DNA of 39,740 nt from Methylococcales bacterium (GTDB lineage: Bacteria > Pseudomonadota > Gammaproteobacteria > Methylococcales > Methylomonadaceae). The stretch spans positions 1 to 39,740 of the forward strand of contig JASMBU010000012.1 of assembly GCA_030753675.1 (NCBI GenBank), in the 5' to 3' direction. This document shows, one piece after another, positions 16,804-25,768 of the stretch (the first letter of the stretch is position 1; the number at the start of each line of letters is the position of its first letter). A program made the position numbers and the translations under genes. The notes below the pieces were generated by a model. That model was not told where the DNA came from and made no database searches. It was given only the letters and a program-made list of their open reading frames with translations.

Positions 16804-17883
16804 TTACAAAGAATTAACCGCATTCAGATCCGCGAAAGCTTGCTCTAAACGTATCGCCATACCCACTTCTCCAGCACGTTGCCATGCTCTTGGGTCATAG
16901 TATTTCTTGTTCGGACTATCGTCACCATCTGGATTACCAATTTGGCCTTGTAAGTAACCTTCATTTGTTTGGTAATAATCTTTAATACCCTCCCAAGTAG
17001 CCCACTGCGTATCAGTATCGATATTCATTTTAATGACACCGTAACCAATAGACTCTGAGATTTCTTCTTGTGAAGAACCCGATCCACCATGGAAAACAAA
17101 ATCAAGTGTATTTGAAGGAACACCAAATTTCTCAGAAACAAATGCTTGAGAATTTGACAAGATTGTTGGTGTTAATTTAACGTTACCTGGCTTATAAACA
17201 CCGTGAACATTACCGAATGAAGCAGCAATAGTAAAACGATGGCTAATTTTGCTTAGAAGCTCATAAGAGTAAGCAACGTCTTCAGGTTGTGTATATAACA
17301 ATGAAGAATCCATATCGCTGTTGTCAACACCGTCTTCCTCACCACCCGTACAACCTAATTCAATTTCAAGCGTCATGTCCATTTTTGACATACGTTCTAA
17401 ATATTCTGCACAAGTACCAATATTCTCTTCAAGACTTTCTTCTGAAAGATCTAACATATGAGAACTAAAAAGTGGCTTCCCTGTAGCTTCAAAATTAGCT
17501 TCACCAGCATCTAATAAACCATCGATCCAAGGTAATAATTTCTTAGCGGCATGATCGGTATGTAGAATAACCGGTACACCATAATGTTCTGCAACATTAT
17601 GAACATGTTGAGCACCTGAAATAGCACCAATAATAGCCAACTGATGTCCGTCTAGCTTTAAACCTTTACCTGCAAGGAACTGCGCACCACCAAATGAAAA
17701 CTGAATGATAACAGGCGATTTAACCTTAGCAGCGGCTTCTAATGTTGCATTAATTGAGCCTGTGCTAATTGTATTGACAGCAGGTAAAGCCATTTTATTG
17801 GCCTTACAATAATCAAATACTTTTTGTACATCATCACCGGTAACGACACCTGGGTTGACGATATCTAATATTGAGTTTGACAT
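16804..17883 (-). CDS. fba: Class II fructose-bisphosphate aldolase
   Basis: This 359-residue FbaA-type enzyme splits or forms fructose-1,6-bisphosphate from DHAP and glyceraldehyde-3-phosphate. The zinc-site motif is HTDH (108-111), ELGCTGGEEDGVDN follows near residue 175, GNVHGVYKPGNVKL near 223 and HGGSGSSQEEI near 264. KMNIDTDTQWATW (about 283) is typical of the E. coli-type subgroup. In the RuMP cycle it cleaves the hexose bisphosphate to triose phosphates. It is the last gene of the minus-strand RuMP block; a terminator after tal suggests it also has its own promoter. Confidence 0.97.
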   Translation of the reverse strand: MSNSILDIVNPGVVTGDDVQKVFDYCKANKMALPAVNTISTGSINATLEAAAKVKSPVIIQFSFGGAQFLAGKGLKLDGHQLAIIGAISGAQHVHNVAEHYGVPVILHTDHAAKKLLPWIDGLLDAGEANFEATGKPLFSSHMLDLSEESLEENIGTCAEYLERMSKMDMTLEIELGCTGGEEDGVDNSDMDSSLLYTQPEDVAYSYELLSKISHRFTIAASFGNVHGVYKPGNVKLTPTILSNSQAFVSEKFGVPSNTLDFVFHGGSGSSQEEISESIGYGVIKMNIDTDTQWATWEGIKDYYQTNEGYLQGQIGNPDGDDSPNKKYYDPRAWQRAGEVGMAIRLEQAFADLNAVNSL

Positions 17884-17991: not shown

Positions 17992-18972
17992 TTAACTTTC
18001 TAAACTACTTAACCGGTCAGCTAATAATGTTTCTAATGTTTCTAATGCCGCCGTAAAACCAGCAATACCCTCTGACAATTTATCACTGGCCATTCTGTTT
18101 TCAGCATGCATTGCATCAAAGACTTCCTTATCAACAGAAATTCTTTCGATATCAGCATTCAGTGCATCAGCAGCATTCAACTTCTGCGGCAATTCGCCTT
18201 CTGTTGCTGCCAATTCATTAATTAACCCTGGTGAGATCGTTAACAAATCAACACCTGCTAGCTCAGTGATTTCGCCTAGGTTTCTGAAACTTGCACCCAT
18301 AACCTCAGTTTTATAGCCGTAACGTTTATAGTAGTTATAAACATCCGTTACAGAAAGAACACCTGGATCTTCAGCTACAGGGTATGAATCACGACCGGTA
18401 TCTTTCTTATACCAATCTAAAATACGACCTACAAAAGGTGAGATAAGCGTAATATTATTGTCACCACAAGCAATCGCCTGGTGTAATCCAAATAATAAAG
18501 TTAAATTACAACTAATTCCTTCCGCTTCTAATACTGCAGCAGCTTGAATGCCTTCCCAAGTTGAAGCAATTTTAATTAAAATACGATCACGCGAGATACC
18601 CGCTGCTTCATACTGAGCAATAATTTCACGCCCTTTAGCAATAGTCGATTCTGTGTCATAAGATAAACGCGCATCTACTTCAGTTGAAACACGACCCGGA
18701 ACAAGGTCTAAAATCTTAAGACCAAATGCAACGGCTAAACGATCAAAAGCAAGGGTTACGACCTCTGCTGCTGACGCTTTAGCGCCTAATGTTTCTCGTG
18801 CGCCTGTCAATGTCTCATCAACAATTCCTTGATATTCAGGCATCTGTGCTGCAGCCGTGATTAACGAAGGATTTGTTGTTGCATCTTGTGGCTTACAATC
18901 CTCAATAGCTTTAAGGTCGCCCGTGTCTGCAACAACTACTGTCATTTCTCTAAGTTGCTCTAATAAATTCAT
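17992..18972 (-). CDS. tal: Transaldolase
   Basis: This 326-residue TalB-type enzyme transfers a dihydroxyacetone unit between sedoheptulose-7-phosphate and glyceraldehyde-3-phosphate, part of ribulose-5-phosphate regeneration in the RuMP cycle. Motif DATTNPSL (30-37) and the Schiff-base lysine Lys134 in [11 protein letters not shown] are present, as is [27 protein letters not shown] (about 231-251) is the C-terminal family block. It lies between terminators on both sides (one after the GVDRYL gene, one after tal), so it is probably its own transcription unit. Confidence 0.97.
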
Positions 18973-19100: not shown

Positions 19101-19133
19101 AAAAAGAATCGAGCGTAAAACACTCGATTCTTT
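19101..19133 (-). terminator. Rho-independent terminator after the GVDRYL gene
   Basis: On the minus strand AAAGAATCGAG pairs with CTCGATTCTTT (11 bp, nine-base loop), followed by a T run. It lies 73 bp after the stop of the upstream small membrane protein gene. Confidence 0.82.
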
Positions 19134-19205
19134 CGTAAACAGGAAGGTTAAACCCTAAGGATTCTAGAGTAAAATTTGACCTTAAATAACTCTAAACAGT
19201 TTTTC

Positions 19206-19589
19206 TTAGCTGTTTAAATAACGATCAACGCCTGTTTGTCCTGCAGCAACCGTCTCAGTAGCACCACCTTGTGCTGCTAAATAACGATCAACTCCTGTGC
19301 TACCACCTGCGGCTCTTGCTGAACCGCCACTCGAACGACCTTTTCTTAAAAAGAAAACACCACCAGCAATTGCCACTAGTAGACCTAACTCAACAACACC
19401 CAGGCCGCCTTCTTCTTTCTTAACAGCTGCAGACGCTGCTTTTACAACTTTAGGCTTAGCAACAGCAGATTTATCTTGATAAACAATAATTGGTTTAAAG
19501 TTATATGCTGGATACTCTTCAGCACCCACAATAGGGCTTGTAACGAGTAACGCTGTGATTAAACCAGTTGCTAATTTTAATTTTTTCAT
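19206..19589 (-). CDS. Unrecognised small exported membrane protein with two C-terminal TGVDRYL motifs
   Basis: I do not recognise this 127-residue protein. It has a signal peptide (MKKLKLATGLITALLVTSPI, ending VGA), a short Lys/Ala-rich stretch (about 25-60), one membrane helix (about 64-81, VVELGLLVAIAGGVFFL) followed by the stop-transfer RKGR, then a Gly/Ser/Ala-rich tail with the same heptapeptide TGVDRYL at residues 98-104 and 119-125, the second two residues from the end. If the signal peptide is cleaved, the tail should lie in the cytoplasm. It sits 29 bp downstream of tkt and before a terminator, so it is likely co-transcribed with tkt. A structural, docking or sorting role of the repeated motif is only a guess. 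Confidence 0.8.
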   Translation of the reverse strand: MKKLKLATGLITALLVTSPIVGAEEYPAYNFKPIIVYQDKSAVAKPKVVKAASAAVKKEEGGLGVVELGLLVAIAGGVFFLRKGRSSGGSARAAGGSTGVDRYLAAQGGATETVAAGQTGVDRYLNS

Positions 19590-19618: not shown

Positions 19619-21604
19619 CTAAAGTGAAGATTCTACACGATTCACAACATTTTCAACAGTAAAACCAAAGTGTTTCATGACATCGCCACCTGGTGCAGAT
19701 TCACCGAAAGTATCAATACCTACAACATCACCTTCTAAGCCAACGTATTTACGCCAAAAATCAGAAACACCCGCTTCAACAGCAATACGCTTAACACCAG
19801 GCGTTAATATACTATCTTTATAAGCTTGGTCTTGACGATCAAATACACTTGTTGACGGCATAGATACAACGCGTACATGCGTACCTTTGGCGGCTAGTTC
19901 TGCTTGAGCCTTAATAGCTAAATTAACCTCAGAACCTGTTGCAATAATAATTGCTGCTGCTTGGCCTACGGCTTCAGAAATAACATAAGCGCCTTTGCGT
20001 ATAGCTGCAATTTGATCATCGGTACGCGCAATAAAAGGAAGACCTTGACGACTAAGTACTAAACTCGTTGGTCCGTCCATACGCTCTACTGCCATGATCC
20101 ATGACACTGCAGTTTCTGTACTGTCTGCAGGACGCCATACATCCATATTTGGAATAAAACGCATTGCTGACGTGTTTTCAATCGGTTGATGAGTCGGACC
20201 GTCTTCACCTTGACCAATTGAGTCATGTGTTAAAACTGCAATGGTACGAATCCCCATCAATGCAGACATACGGAAAGCACTTTTAGCGTAATCAGAGAAC
20301 ATATGAAATGTTCCACCGAAAGGCAGTAATCCACCATGAAGAGCCATGCCATTCATAATGGCATACATACCAAACTCACGCACACCATAAGAAATGTAAT
20401 TACCCATTTCACTACCGCTAACGTGTTTAAAATCGGCACAACTAGTTAAGTTTGAGCCTGTCAAATCTGCTGACCCACCTAAAAATTCAGGTAATGTTGA
20501 TGCTAAACCAGCAATTGTTTTCTGAGAGGCTTGACGGCTCGCTAAGTTCTCTTGTTTAGAATTTATTTCTGCTATCAATGCATCAGATGCTTCTTGCCAG
20601 TTCGCAGGTAAATCCCCATCCATTCGACGTGTAAATTCAGCGGCTTCTGCAGGATATTCTGCTGCATATGCTGCAAATTTATCGTTCCATGTGTTTTCTA
20701 CCCGTGCGCCTTTTGCTTTTGCATCCCAACCGGCATATACGTCGTCAGGGATTTCAAAAGGTGCATAATCCCATCCTAGTTCTTTCCGCGTTAATGCAAC
20801 TTCTTCATCACCTAATGCGGCGCCATGACAATCATGACTACCACTTTTATTTGGTGAACCAAAACCAATAATCGTTTTACAACAGATTAATGACGGTTTA
20901 TCCGTAATTGATTTTGCTTCAGTGATCGCAGCAGAAATAGCACCGGCATCATGTCCATCTACAGACACAACATGCCAATTGTAAGCTTCAAAACGCTTTA
21001 CAGTGTCATCTGTATACCAACCATCAATATGCCCATCAATAGAAATATTATTGTCGTCCCAAAATGCTATCAGATTCCCTAATCCCCAAGTCCCTGCAAG
21101 TGAACAAGCCTCATGGGAAATACCTTCCATTAAACAACCGTCTCCCATGAACACATAAGTGTTATGGTCTACAATTTTATGTCCTGGTTTATTGAACTGA
21201 TCTGCCATCAACTTTTCAGCCATAGCAAAACCAACACCATTGGTGATCCCTTGTCCTAAGGGCCCCGTTGTTGTTTCAATACCGGGTGCAAAGCCATATT
21301 CCGGATGGCCAGCACATTTCGAATGTAACTGACGAAATGAAGCCAATTGCTCCATAGGCAAGTCGTATCCTGATAAATGCAATAATGAGTAAATCAGCAT
21401 GGAGCCGTGTCCATTTGACAAGACAAAACGATCACGGTCTGCCCATTCAGCATTCGTTGGGTTATGTTTTAGATGATCATTCCATAATACTTCAGCAATA
21501 TCTGCCATACCCATGGGTGCACCCGGGTGACCTGATTTAGCTTTTTGCACAGCGTCCATGCTTAGTGCTCTTATAGCGTTCGCTAGTTTTCTACGCGAAG
21601 ACAT
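19619..21604 (-). CDS. tkt: Transketolase
   Basis: This 661-residue thiamine-diphosphate enzyme exchanges two-carbon units among C3-C7 sugar phosphates to rebuild the RuMP acceptor. The substrate-binding histidine is in [10 protein letters not shown] (23-32), the diphosphate-Mg motif is GDGCLMEG (154-161), and DLTGSNLT and GREFGM-type ([13 protein letters not shown]) blocks mark the pyrimidine domain; a C-terminal domain with [14 protein letters not shown] is present. Length matches bacterial Tkt. It follows hps-phi after a hairpin and precedes the GVDRYL gene by 29 bp. Confidence 0.98.
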
Positions 21605-21739: not shown

Positions 21740-22273
21740 TTATTCCATATTAGCGTGTATTGCTCGCATACCTTCTTCAGTGAGGTTTTTCTCATGAATA
21801 ATGTATGAAACCACTGCTTCTAAAAATATCAACGTTGATAATTCAAAAACTGATCCCATTGGCATTCCATGTACTTTCTCATACATATCAGGACGACCAA
21901 TATTAAATACTGCGTCAACCATACTACCTATAGTTGATTCTGATTTAGATGAAATCAAAATAGCTTTGGCACCAACATCTTTAGCTTTCTGCGTAAACGC
22001 TGCTAATTGTTGTGTTTCACCGGAACCTGATATGACGATAAGTAAGTCACCTTCTTTAATACTCGGTGTCACGGTTTCGCCAACTAAATTCACGGTATAA
22101 CCAGCATGCATTAAACGCATTGCAAAATTTTTACAAACCAGTGCAGAACGACCTGCCCCTGCTAGAAAAACCCCATTAGCTTCATCAACAAGTCCTGTTA
22201 ACTGACTGTCATAGTCATGCTCAGTCGCAGCTAATATGGTCGAAATTTTCTCAATAATTAACTGTTGATGCAT
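21740..22273 (-). CDS. phi: 6-phospho-3-hexuloisomerase
   Basis: This 177-residue SIS-domain enzyme converts D-arabino-hex-3-ulose-6-phosphate to fructose-6-phosphate, the second step of formaldehyde fixation in the RuMP pathway. GAGRSALVCKNFAMRL (39-54) and VISGSGETQQL (about 87) are the two sugar-phosphate loops of SIS isomerases, and the C-terminal FELSTLIFLEAVV is typical of PHI. I place the start at the ATG at 22273, one base after the hps stop (TAATATG), not at an earlier in-frame codon inside hps. This spacing indicates translational coupling with hps. Confidence 0.95.
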   Translation of the reverse strand: MHQQLIIEKISTILAATEHDYDSQLTGLVDEANGVFLAGAGRSALVCKNFAMRLMHAGYTVNLVGETVTPSIKEGDLLIVISGSGETQQLAAFTQKAKDVGAKAILISSKSESTIGSMVDAVFNIGRPDMYEKVHGMPMGSVFELSTLIFLEAVVSYIIHEKNLTEEGMRAIHANME

Positions 22274-22274
22274 A

Positions 22275-22922
22275 TTATGCGCCTGCTGTGTCAACAAGTT
22301 GACGAATTTCACGAGCTGAATCAGCAGGTGACGGTGCACCATAGATTGCTGCGCCAACTACAACGATATTTGCACCCGCTTGTACAACACTTTGTGCTGT
22401 AGACTGGTTAATACCGCCCGCTACTGAAATTCTCACTGGTAAACCTAAAGCAGCGATGTCACTCAAATCACCAAAAGGTGTAGCACCTGCCGCTTGTGCG
22501 TCAAGACCTGTATGAATACCAATGATTTGTGCGCCTAAATCAGCTGATGCACGTGCACATTCAACCTTATCAGGAACGTTAATCAAATCAATTTGTGCTT
22601 CTGCACCGTGCTCGTTTGCTGCTTTAACAACACCCGCAATAGTTGGAAGACCCGATACACCCAATACTGTACAGATATCTGCACCAGCTGCATAAAAAGG
22701 TGTCGCTTCATATTCACCCGCATCCATAGTCTTTAAATCAACTAACAATAATTTGTCAGGATGACTTCTTCTTAGTTCTGAAACTAAGTTAACACCATTG
22801 TGTTTAATACACGGCGTACCAATTTCAATAATGTCAATGTAAGGGGCAACTTGATCAGCAAGAGCTATACTTGCATCAAAATCTAGTGCGTCTACTGCCA
22901 GTTGGATAAGTGTTCTAGCCAT
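22275..22922 (-). CDS. hps: 3-hexulose-6-phosphate synthase
   Basis: This 215-residue protein of the orotidine-5'-phosphate-decarboxylase suprafamily condenses formaldehyde with ribulose-5-phosphate, the key step of RuMP methylotrophy. The metal/substrate motif DLKTMDAGEYEA (62-73) is diagnostic, with EIGTPCIKHNGV (33-44) and VAGGINQSTAQSV near residue 167. I use the ATG at 22922 (MARTLIQLAVDALDF), which has GGAG nine bases upstream and matches family N-termini; an in-frame codon at 22979 would add a non-conserved leader. It is the first gene of the block and has a promoter-like sequence upstream. Confidence 0.97.
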   Translation of the reverse strand: MARTLIQLAVDALDFDASIALADQVAPYIDIIEIGTPCIKHNGVNLVSELRRSHPDKLLLVDLKTMDAGEYEATPFYAAGADICTVLGVSGLPTIAGVVKAANEHGAEAQIDLINVPDKVECARASADLGAQIIGIHTGLDAQAAGATPFGDLSDIAALGLPVRISVAGGINQSTAQSVVQAGANIVVVGAAIYGAPSPADSAREIRQLVDTAGA

Positions 22923-23255: not shown

Positions 23256-24119
23256 ATGCCCCCATTCACCAACATCAAGGCACTTATCATTGACATGGAC
23301 GGCGTATTATGGCGTGGAGAGCAACCCATAACCGGTCTAAACGATTTCTTCGACACCCTAAGAAAAATCAATATCCCCTTTATTCTTGCCACCAACAATG
23401 CCAGCCTAACCCAGACGCAATACACTGAAAAGCTTGCTCGCATGGGCGTTACCATTAAGCTGAAAGAGATTTTAACTTCCGCAATGGCAACGGCGCTTCA
23501 CCTTTCTAAACAATACACACCTAATACTACACGTATATTTGTCATTGGCGAACAAGGCTTAAAAAAACCCTTACTTGAGAAAGGTTTCACACTAACCGGT
23601 CTTAATGAAATCAATGATGGTAACGGCATTCACTCTAAAACTGGGCCGCATATTGTGATTTGCGGATTAGACAGAAAGGTTTCGTGGGAAAAAATGAGCA
23701 CTGCAACGCTGAACATAAATGCAGGCGCTGCGTTTTTTGGAACCAATGGCGACACGTCCTTTCCCATCGAACTGGGCGAAACACTGGGTAACGGTGCTAT
23801 TTTAGCCGCACTTACCGCAGCAACCCATGCCACCCCGACTATTATAGGAAAACCCGAACCGATTATTTATCAACAAGCCATGGCACTCCTTAAATCAAAA
23901 CCCGAAGAAACCATTGCCATTGGAGATCGTTTAGATACTGATATTTTAGGTGCTATAAAAAGCAACATCAGAAGTTTAATGGTTTTAACCGGGGTTTCTA
24001 ACCACAAAGATGTGGCAGAAAGTCCTTTTAAGCCCACCTGGATCATGAACAGTATAAGCTCAATAACCTTGGCTCTAACAGACTCACGACCCAATATTCC
24101 AACAAAAATAATCAACTGA
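23256..24119 (+). CDS. NagD-like HAD-superfamily (IIA) phosphatase
   Basis: This 287-residue HAD hydrolase has all four motifs: nucleophile DMDGVLW (13-19), ATNNAS (motif II, about 45), GKPEP (motif III lysine, about 197) and GDRLDTDI (motif IV, about 222). The large cap inserted between motifs II and III is type C2a, as in NagD and phosphoglycolate/p-nitrophenyl phosphatases. The substrate is unknown; small phosphate esters such as phosphoglycolate or sugar phosphates are likely. It lies 21 bp before dhaK in the same direction, so the two are likely an operon. A role in removing phosphate from a C2-C3 by-product is inferred from this context. Confidence 0.88.
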   Translation: MPPFTNIKALIIDMDGVLWRGEQPITGLNDFFDTLRKINIPFILATNNASLTQTQYTEKLARMGVTIKLKEILTSAMATALHLSKQYTPNTTRIFVIGEQGLKKPLLEKGFTLTGLNEINDGNGIHSKTGPHIVICGLDRKVSWEKMSTATLNINAGAAFFGTNGDTSFPIELGETLGNGAILAALTAATHATPTIIGKPEPIIYQQAMALLKSKPEETIAIGDRLDTDILGAIKSNIRSLMVLTGVSNHKDVAESPFKPTWIMNSISSITLALTDSRPNIPTKIIN

Positions 24120-24140
24120 CTAACCCGCCACCCTCTTGCT

Positions 24141-25130
24141 ATGAAAAAACTTATCAACAACCCCGACGACCTTTTACCTGATAGCCTTACTGGATTTGCT
24201 AATGCGCATGCTGACATTATTCAACTGCAACGTAATCCCTACGTTATCCATAGGACAAACCAACCCGCAAAACCTAAAGTTGCCTTGATTTCAGGCGGGG
24301 GATCGGGTCATGAACCACTACACTCTGGATTCGTAGGCACCGGTATGCTTGATGCAGCCTGCCCTGGTCACATCTTTACCTCACCCACACCCGACCAAAT
24401 GATAACCGCAGCAACAACCGTCGAAAATGGTGCAGGAATCCTATTTATTGTAAAAAATTATGCTGGCGATATCATGAATTTTGAAATCGCCTCAGAACTA
24501 GTCACCTCACCCAACGAAACGGTGATCGTTGCCGATGATATTGCCTTACCCAAAGATCACAGCATGGGTCGCCGTGGCGTTGCGGGAACATTAATTATTG
24601 AAAAGATGGTCGGTGCTGCTGCCGAACGCGAGCACAACTTGGCTTACTGCAAATCTTTAGGTGACCGAATTAGCGCAAACACAGCCTCTATCGGTGCTGC
24701 CTTAACAAGCTGTACTGTTCCAGCCCTCGGAAAACCAACTTTCGACATTAATGAAACCGAAATAGAAATGGGCGTCGGCATCCATGGTGAACGCGGCTGT
24801 TCCACACAACAATTTACCGATGCAACGACGCTCACTCACAATCTAGGCGACGCTATTTACGATGAGCTGAAACCTAAAAATGGGCAAGAAATACTCTTAC
24901 ATATCAATGGTTTAGGTGCTACTCCTCTCATTGAGCAATATTTAGTTTATGAGATAGCACAAAAATATTGGAAACAAAAAGGCATCACTATTACCCGGTC
25001 TCTCGTTGGCAATTACACGACCTCCCTTGACATGGCAGGTTGCTCAATGACAGTCACCCTGCTAGATCCTGAACTCACGACACTATGGGACCATCCCGTC
25101 CATACCGCTAATTTACGCTGGGGATGTTAA
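24141..25130 (+). CDS. dhaK: Dihydroxyacetone kinase subunit DhaK
   Basis: DhaK binds dihydroxyacetone covalently through a histidine and works with the nucleotide-binding DhaL. The 329-residue protein has GGGSGHEP (52-59), CPGHIFTSPTPDQM near residue 74, KNYAGDIMNFE (105-115) and GVGIHGERG (211-219), whose His215 is the expected hemiaminal-forming residue. It is a stand-alone K subunit, without the fused L domain of ATP-type enzymes. dhaL is adjacent but on the opposite strand, and the two stop codons overlap. No dhaM is in the window, so either PTS-type phosphoryl transfer with a distant DhaM or direct ATP use is possible. Confidence 0.95.
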   Translation: MKKLINNPDDLLPDSLTGFANAHADIIQLQRNPYVIHRTNQPAKPKVALISGGGSGHEPLHSGFVGTGMLDAACPGHIFTSPTPDQMITAATTVENGAGILFIVKNYAGDIMNFEIASELVTSPNETVIVADDIALPKDHSMGRRGVAGTLIIEKMVGAAAEREHNLAYCKSLGDRISANTASIGAALTSCTVPALGKPTFDINETEIEMGVGIHGERGCSTQQFTDATTLTHNLGDAIYDELKPKNGQEILLHINGLGATPLIEQYLVYEIAQKYWKQKGITITRSLVGNYTTSLDMAGCSMTVTLLDPELTTLWDHPVHTANLRWGC

Positions 25131-25768
25131 GCTTCATCGACTAAAAAGTCCGTTAAGGCGCACAGCATCACTTGGCTCGACTTAGCGCCTGCATCTATGT
25201 GCCCCACAGAACGATCACCCATGTAAGCAGCGCGCCCTTTCGTTGCGACCATATTGCGCGTTGACTCAACACCCTCAAGCGCCACGCTAGCAATAGCGTC
25301 CAATAACACGTTTCTTTCAGCACCTTCATCCAACAACTGTGTTAAACACTGCGCAACGGGGACCAACACATCAAGCATGGTCTTCTCACCCACATCAGAC
25401 TTCCCTCGCGCTTTCATTGCATCCACACCTTGATTAAAGGCGTCAGCCATTCCACGGGTCGTTAATTCATTATCTTTCAACACACTGCTCATTTTAAGAA
25501 ACAAGGTGCCATACAACGAACCAGAAGCCCCGCCCACCGAACTCATTAACGATAAGCCAATAACCTGAAATGCCCCCGACCAATCTGTACGCGCTAAATC
25601 ATCCGCCTTAGCTTGCAAAACAGCCAGACCACGCAACAAATTGACCACATGATCACCATCACCCAATATACGGTCTAACTCTTCCAACTCATCAGAGTTA
25701 TTTGAAATCGTTCCATGCAAAAGCACAATTACATCCGGCAATATTTCAGGTTTACCGACCATATTCAT
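25127..25768 (-). CDS. dhaL: Dihydroxyacetone kinase subunit DhaL
   Basis: This 213-residue all-alpha DhaL subunit carries the nucleotide-Mg motif DRILGDGDH with the three expected aspartates, GGASGSLYGTLFLKM near residue 79 and the C-terminal GRAAYMGDRSVGHIDAGAKS block. It transfers phosphate to dihydroxyacetone held by DhaK. The start is an ATG at 25768; a second ATG two codons later is also possible, since both lie behind one GGAG. It is convergent with dhaK, with stops sharing two bases, and is divergent from the PfkB gene. This split orientation is unusual, because dhaK and dhaL are normally co-directional. Confidence 0.95.
   Translation of the reverse strand: MNMVGKPEILPDVIVLLHGTISNNSDELEELDRILGDGDHVVNLLRGLAVLQAKADDLARTDWSGAFQVIGLSLMSSVGGASGSLYGTLFLKMSSVLKDNELTTRGMADAFNQGVDAMKARGKSDVGEKTMLDVLVPVAQCLTQLLDEGAERNVLLDAIASVALEGVESTRNMVATKGRAAYMGDRSVGHIDAGAKSSQVMLCALTDFLVDEA

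Follow-up and report, generated by a model that had tools for sequence, protein, structure and literature searches.

What is a short membrane protein ending in two copies of the same heptapeptide doing in the middle of a RuMP operon? The question is raised by a gene that we call X, in a window of 39,740 nucleotides from a Methylococcales bacterium (contig JASMBU010000012.1 of assembly GCA_030753675.1), which is contig C3 of its own genome (G000, 1.72 Mb in 85 contigs). We propose that X and a soluble companion protein, M, are probably multivalent docking scaffolds that hold and cluster 3-hexulose-6-phosphate synthase (Hps) at the inner membrane, a reading built on sequence comparison. The initial annotation had described an open reading frame with a signal peptide, a single helix, an RKGR stop and two TGVDRYL copies 21 residues apart, and all of these are present in the sequence. 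The features of X are as follows.

19206..19589, minus strand: X, candidate membrane-anchored docking protein, 127 aa with an ATG start, its family known from homologue searches
19521..19589, minus strand: signal-peptide-like N-terminus, residues 1-23 (sequence, and helix 3-16 of the model)
19473..19514, minus strand: periplasmic motif YPAYNFKPIIVYQD, residues 26-39 (homologue comparison)
19335..19397, minus strand: membrane helix, residues 65-85 (sequence, and the same helix in the model)
19278..19298, minus strand: putative docking motif 1, TGVDRYL, residues 98-104 (sequence; short helix 99-107 in the model)
19215..19235, minus strand: putative docking motif 2, TGVDRYL, residues 119-125 (sequence; short helix 120-126 in the model)

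The putative signal peptide is probably cleaved, with the predicted site after GA. RKGR follows the membrane helix on its C-terminal side, and this side was taken as cytoplasmic according to the positive-inside rule; X would be a single-pass inner-membrane anchor of type I topology. The AlphaFold2 model, which is indicative only (mean pLDDT 59.7), contains the helices 3-16, 65-85, 99-107 and 120-126 with low confidence between them. Two motif matches occurred in none of 20,000 shuffles of the X protein (mean 0.0002 matches per shuffle). The YPAYNFKPIIVYQD-type motif is present once in this X and twice in most of its named relatives.

On the minus strand of the window the gene order is hps, phi, tkt, X, tal and fba.

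22275..22922, minus strand: hps, 3-hexulose-6-phosphate synthase, 215 aa from the ATG at 22922 (TIGR03128, 240.9 bits against a cut-off of 200)
21740..22273, minus strand: phi (hxlB), 6-phospho-3-hexuloisomerase (TIGR03127, 187.1 bits); start inferred from the family match, the ORF list placing it at 22357
19619..21604, minus strand: tkt, transketolase, directly upstream of X (TIGR00232, 964.2 bits)
19102..19134, minus strand: strong terminator-like hairpin with a T run between X and tal (-21.6 kcal/mol, z -4.3)
17992..18972, minus strand: tal, transaldolase, downstream of X (TIGR00874, 461.6 bits)
16804..17883, minus strand: fba, class II fructose-bisphosphate aldolase (family match)

X had been placed between tkt and a terminator, and its surroundings bear this out, as X starts 29 bases past the end of tkt and the hairpin with its T run lies downstream. 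The hairpin was equalled by 1 of 200 shuffles. It was not among the calls of a simple terminator scan, which we infer to be due to the loop limit of that scan. A promoter-like site before tal (19040-19013) is weak, because the scan gave fewer such sites than it did in shuffles. The operon in the window contains no M gene. Genes for a HAD-IIA phosphatase, dhaK and dhaL adjoin hps (window 23256-25768) and recur near the operon in a few relatives.

X protein matches were found in 26 of the 41 genomes searched, its own included, a count that takes in short proteins sharing only the YPA part. The closest named relatives of X are Methylococcales MAGs, OPU3 among them, so the window very probably derives from a marine type I methanotroph of that group. 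All four same-genus genomes searched carry two motifs in X, TGVDRYL twice in G001, G002 and G003, and TGVDRYV with TGVDRYL in G004. Outside the genus, full-length relatives are about 200-270 aa long and consist of a signal peptide, one or two YPAxxFxPxVxYxD stretches, a membrane helix and C-terminal [TS]GVx[KR]Y[LM] motifs, of which X homologues hold two to four copies. The X family is present in much of Methylococcales (families f1, f3, f4 and f5) and was not seen in families f6-f8. The motif is thus kept in close homologues, and the gene is not peculiar to one strain, a possibility that the initial annotation had raised against its own reading.

The companion M is a soluble protein with 4-17 copies of the motif, usually encoded immediately after X. 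For synteny we kept 80 loci of named genomes out of 166 relatives. X lies after tkt and before tal in 66 of the 80 (55 with M in between and 11 without; one of them, L146, has a tkt piece at a contig end that was called on the opposite strand), which upholds the conservation beside tkt that had been proposed as a check. The typical operon is hps-phi-tkt-X-M-tal-fba. The other loci comprise two with tkt-X-M and tal unseen, four with a contig edge before X, one with X before hps, four with a motif protein directly before hps-phi, and three of other kinds. Where the next open reading frame is M, the distance between the end of X and the earliest start available to M ranges from -3 to 8 positions and is mostly 4. 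Within the genus of the window, M was found in G004, before hps; the contigs examined from G001-G003 end before reaching past hps. In G034 a short X-like frame between tkt and tal has a membrane stretch and two motifs without the YPA part, suggesting that the motif tail is the part that matters there. In Methylotuvimicrobium buryatense 5G (L073, L200), a tandem repeat takes in M, hps, phi and tkt, and M precedes the hps copies.

The periplasmic motif of X also exists on its own, since two or three YPAxxFxPKVxY repeats constitute the small secreted proteins encoded at L098:8186-8440, L100:8911-9156 and L101:7855-8151, those in L098 and L100 adjoining an ABC transporter operon. A paralogue of X in the genome of the window (L102:7113-7574, G000:C44) has a YPA-like motif and a membrane stretch, no TGV motif, and ends in KRKRYGYQGR. 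G032, a genome with no hps over the cut-off, encodes a YPA-type protein with a membrane stretch and without the TGV tail (L219:1004-1648).

The repeats in X and M are not due to chance. In the named loci the strict motif was counted 259 times in 73 X and 577 times in 70 M proteins (836 in total), against 0.0 and 0.02 expected from shuffles, and it was absent from 324 RuMP-enzyme frames and from 875 other frames of the same loci. The motif logo, in which V and Y are fixed by the search pattern, shows G at 78% in M and 94% in X, L at 62% and 61%, and K over R; K/R and Q often follow, and the flanks are variable. The motifs are loosely spaced, their distances peaking at 15, 16 and 20 in M and at 12, 15 and 22 in X. 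The median pI is 9.57 for M and 4.82 for Hps.

A DNA form of the motif matched in 60 of 61 genomes of the family, mostly well above the reversed control. A strict DNA pattern, which also misses the motifs of the X in the window, matched in 18 of 369 genomes of the class, more than once only in G014 and G027. The notion drawn from this pattern, that the repeat is limited to Methylococcales, proved wrong, as an R-type repeat, TGVERYI, was found via hps in another family, f10.

The initial annotation had asked whether the motif marks a set of proteins. It does, the set comprising X, M and two further types, Z and W. Z-type proteins are soluble, with 3-9 motifs and a C-terminal Cys/His domain (CQAxTxxGxQCk...CxQHxxD); their loci (L087, L091, L092, L093, L096 and L097 in full, L090 in part) have no neighbourhood common to all. 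W-type proteins are Sel1-repeat proteins with a membrane stretch and TGVERYI or TGVGRYL near the C-terminus (L086, that is, G000:C7 around 11232; L103; L104). The Sel1 repeat, scored on L103, reached 37.8 bits against a cut-off of 30.7, with the motif tail outside the match. The W-type gene at G000:C7 is the only other match to the TGV DNA pattern in the genome of the window. A ChpA-like hybrid kinase of f10 (L385:3477-9176, G556), with Hpt, HATPase, CheW and receiver domains, has motif-like stretches, at least five of them, between its Hpt domains, as if a chemosensory kinase were docking on Hps.

Which protein does the motif recognise? We compared Hps, Phi, Tal and Tkt between motif-bearing and motif-lacking Methylococcales. 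Genomes were classed as motif-bearing by the presence of X or M at the locus, by counts of the pattern or by a match to a tail profile, rather than by reading each one. The motif-lacking set comprised family f6 (with G040), four genomes of genus g40, G089, G111, G083 and, after a check, G099, which was set motif-lacking after its Hps had been seen to lack the residues described below, though on separate DNA evidence. G040 was put in this set because the X and M found there appear to be contaminants: they are identical between L222 (G040) and L236 (G026), which belong to two families, so contamination of the G040 bin is probable.

Conservation among motif-bearing genomes reaches 95% or more in 112 columns of Hps. 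Numbered from the ATG, R164, L58 and E108 (positions 183, 77 and 127 of the alignment script) are altered in 6, 5 and 4 of the 6 motif-lacking lineages, and the next columns reach 3. Before G099 was moved, 3 columns were changed in at least 4 of 5 lineages, against 0.01 expected under independence. L58, E108 and R164 occur together in 94 of 94 motif-bearing Hps and in 0 of 20 motif-lacking Hps. The 94 include Hps-Phi fusions, which have this LER triad in 11 of 11 cases. In the motif-lacking G083, represented by one sequence, the only changes among the 112 columns are at these three residues. Within genus g40, the motif-bearing G132 has LER, and G089, G104, G130, G139 and G143 are without it. 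Taken singly, the triad residues are not absolute switches: G099 and one of the two G111 copies retain E108, one G111 copy keeps L58, and the Hps of G143 keeps L58 and R164 with E108 lost. When one lineage at a time was left out, p values for Hps, which treat columns as equal and are rough, ranged from 0.0005 to 0.005, except for G111 (0.31, non-significant).

An order-wide table of 121 genomes (A1 profile match with hps, 85; A1 match only, 4; hps only, 7; neither, 25) was considered as proof of a link between scaffold and hps and was dropped, because the first cell holds motif-less genomes, namely eight f6 genomes and G099, which are without a clustered motif (within f6, the A1-match loci read were those of G029 and G084). 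Fisher's p was not used because the genomes are related. Among the genomes with an A1 match only, G032 has its YPA protein without TGV, the hps of G049 and G125 is seemingly cut at contig ends, and the fourth is G100.

A second family gave an independent set of Hps sequences, for which the triad positions had been fixed beforehand from Methylococcales. Hps over the cut-off (E up to 1e-40) was found in 6 of 369 genomes of the class, three of Methylococcales and three of f10, which is probably Methylophilaceae. The three f10 genomes agree in their gene order, namely hps1, a soluble motif protein with 4-7 TGVERYI- or TSVERYI-like motifs, tal, hps2 and phi. A search for motif proteins in f10 matched in 49 of 57 genomes, some only in long frames of up to about 2,000 residues, the one such frame read being the ChpA-like kinase. 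Of the 49 genomes with a match, 31 were read, and hps1 adjoins the match within the stretch in 30. This hps1 encodes L, E and R in 30 of 30 genomes, in two of which (G534 and G556) no motif frame was called at the match. Complete hps2 genes encode K, I or T, then E, then K in 15 of 15 cases and LER in none. Among the 112 columns, only 2, 5, 58 and 164 are kept by hps1 and lost by hps2, and none shows the reverse; position 2 is at the ragged N-terminus and position 5 is the first residue of strand 1. With both sets combined and only distinct sequences counted, LER occurs in 121 of 121 cases on one side and 0 of 35 on the other. Taken together, these data establish a family of motif proteins, show where it sits in the RuMP operon and link it by covariation to a site on Hps. 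The earlier idea of a tag that docks soluble enzymes at the membrane is thereby supported, in that the tag covaries with a three-residue site of one such enzyme. Hps is likely the partner of the motif, as judged from this covariation, and the repeated heptapeptide very probably serves as a tag that docks the formaldehyde-capturing enzyme.

The three residues give the following proposed sites (covariation and model).

22749..22751, minus strand: L58 of Hps, at the start of strand 3, proposed docking site
22599..22601, minus strand: E108 of Hps, at the start of strand 5, proposed docking site
22431..22433, minus strand: R164 of Hps, at the start of strand 7, proposed docking site

In the AlphaFold2 model of the Hps in the window (pLDDT 91.6), which has the HPS fold and matches the solved Hps structures 3f4w and 3ajx (TM 0.88), strands occupy residues 5-10, 58-62, 108-112 and 164-168, so that strands 1, 3, 5 and 7 begin with L5, L58, E108 and R164, respectively. 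In such barrels the strand starts cluster on the face opposite the active site. By this general layout, the four residues would lie together at the bottom of the barrel, opposite the catalytic end. As read from alignments, 3ajx, 3f4w and 9lj9 do not have all three triad residues.

Could the motif dock elsewhere, on Phi, Tkt, Tal, a cytoskeletal protein or itself, with the Hps triad following a third factor gained or lost together with the scaffold? X and M also adjoin tkt and tal, the motif occurs in proteins unlinked to hps (the Z type, the W type and the ChpA-like kinase), and one weak column of Tkt, M582, is changed in 4 of the 6 motif-lacking lineages. However, the changes at Tkt 582 are conservative (M to L, I or V), and the column is not invariant in motif-bearing genomes. 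In Phi, compared across 4 lineages, changes at any one column are confined to 2 of them at most. The same holds for Tal, in a thin comparison of 4 lineages, since f6 and four g40 genomes gave no Tal match. Moreover, the f10 paralogues differ at the triad sites within one genome, according to adjacency to M, and at five loci (L141, L142, L159, L198 and L202) the motif gene lies directly before hps-phi with no tkt or tal in line. We therefore regard a partner other than Hps as unlikely.

It is a slightly slimmer prospect that the triad is an internal network at the barrel bottom, concerned with stability or oligomer state, which merely tracks the lineages that have the scaffold. Residues at the first position of a strand often pack in the barrel core, and replacements within the triad seem to go together (K with Q or W, then M, T or K), as such a network would have it. 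Against it, a tree of 88 rows built without columns 5, 58, 108 and 164 has at least four label changes forced by well-supported branches, and both types of f10 paralogue share one cytoplasm. Finally, the basic repeat tails might act on the shape of the membrane, with membrane lipid, polyphosphate or nucleic acid as their ligand and no enzyme docked, which we consider very improbable. It is true that most M and the tails of X are basic, and that the N-terminus of M is amphipathic-looking in some cases. However, the motif shows a strong preference for G and L between variable flanks, a code that a purely charge-based role would not need, and one M has a net charge of -49.

Under the Hps scaffold reading, we infer direct binding, clustering, membrane tethering and a benefit for formaldehyde capture. 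X would be anchored in the inner membrane, with its disordered, mostly basic cytoplasmic tail exposing two to four short helix motifs. Each motif would dock on the bottom of the Hps (beta-alpha)8 barrel, at L58, E108 and R164 together with L5 of strand 1, and Hps held in this way would keep its active site free. In most named relatives M, made alongside X, would cross-link Hps through its 4-17 motifs, and several motifs per scaffold with more than one Hps per oligomer would give a network tethered by X. Hps would thereby be concentrated in a layer or condensate lining the cytoplasmic side of the (intracytoplasmic) membrane. Methanol dehydrogenase makes formaldehyde on the periplasmic side, and formaldehyde entering the cell would be condensed immediately with ribulose 5-phosphate at the Hps layer.

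A more far-reaching possibility, which we put forward as speculative and rather doubtful, is that a metabolon for handling formaldehyde is linked across the membrane by X. The YPAxxFxPxVxYxD repeats of X on the lumen side would engage the methanol-oxidising side and the TGVxKYL tail of X would hold the cytoplasmic Hps layer or condensate, so that formaldehyde would be caught while crossing the membrane; other proteins (the ChpA-like kinase of f10 and the Sel1 and Cys/His proteins of methanotrophs) would use the same docking code to read or place the Hps assembly.

If the scaffold reading is correct, it bears on how methanotrophs take up extracytoplasmic formaldehyde without being poisoned, and it would provide a natural pair of tag and receptor for synthetic methylotrophs. 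The Hps of Methylococcus capsulatus was reportedly described in the 1970s as particulate, unlike the Hps of other methylotrophs, and X would explain this.

X gave nothing over the cut-off in Pfam (best 10.7 bits against 33.5) or NCBIfam (best 12.6 against 84); three M proteins (best Zein, 20.9 against 24.6) and two Z proteins likewise had no Pfam match over the cut-off. A match of Z to Diatom pyrenoid component 2 (E 0.028, 15.3 bits against 70) was taken as chance, as was the single hit of the X profile among PDB sequences, a designed repeat protein (E 0.098). The motif strings had no match in a search of open-licence papers, and among the matches listed from that literature no title or abstract opening mentions a native Hps scaffold in a methylotroph. 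With no named family for X, M or Z and no literature report found, we judge the motif, the client and the membrane anchor to be new.

How does such a scaffold compare with known systems? One paper (PMC8879981) describes Mdh-Hps-Phi fusions and complexes engineered for synthetic methylotrophy; like these, X and M would bring formaldehyde and Hps close together, but the engineered systems are man-made enzyme fusions, whereas X and M would be natural, separate scaffold genes in the operon. As in the cohesin-dockerin system, a repeated module would recruit enzymes to a scaffold fixed to the cell. Unlike that system, the proposed scaffold presents short linear motifs, for which a surface of the enzyme itself would serve as receptor, and family searches with X, M and Z gave no cohesin or dockerin match.

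EPYC1 is the linker of the algal pyrenoid, and CsoS2 and CcmM are scaffolds of carboxysomes. These are mostly disordered repeat proteins whose short motifs make many weak contacts that cluster a carbon-fixing enzyme. None of their families appeared among the family matches of X, M and Z. X and M fit the multivalent pattern of EPYC1 and CsoS2, with a short conserved motif repeated in a variable, low-complexity chain and genes linked to that of the proposed client enzyme, hps. They differ in that the proposed client is Hps and not Rubisco (in the loci read, X and M sit in RuMP operons and not near Rubisco) and in that X is a predicted single-pass membrane anchor with a signal peptide, with no shell seen. 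By analogy, the way of working would resemble that of the Rubisco linkers, and RuMP methylotrophs would own a motif-based scaffold for Hps as algae and cyanobacteria do for Rubisco, here anchored in the membrane.
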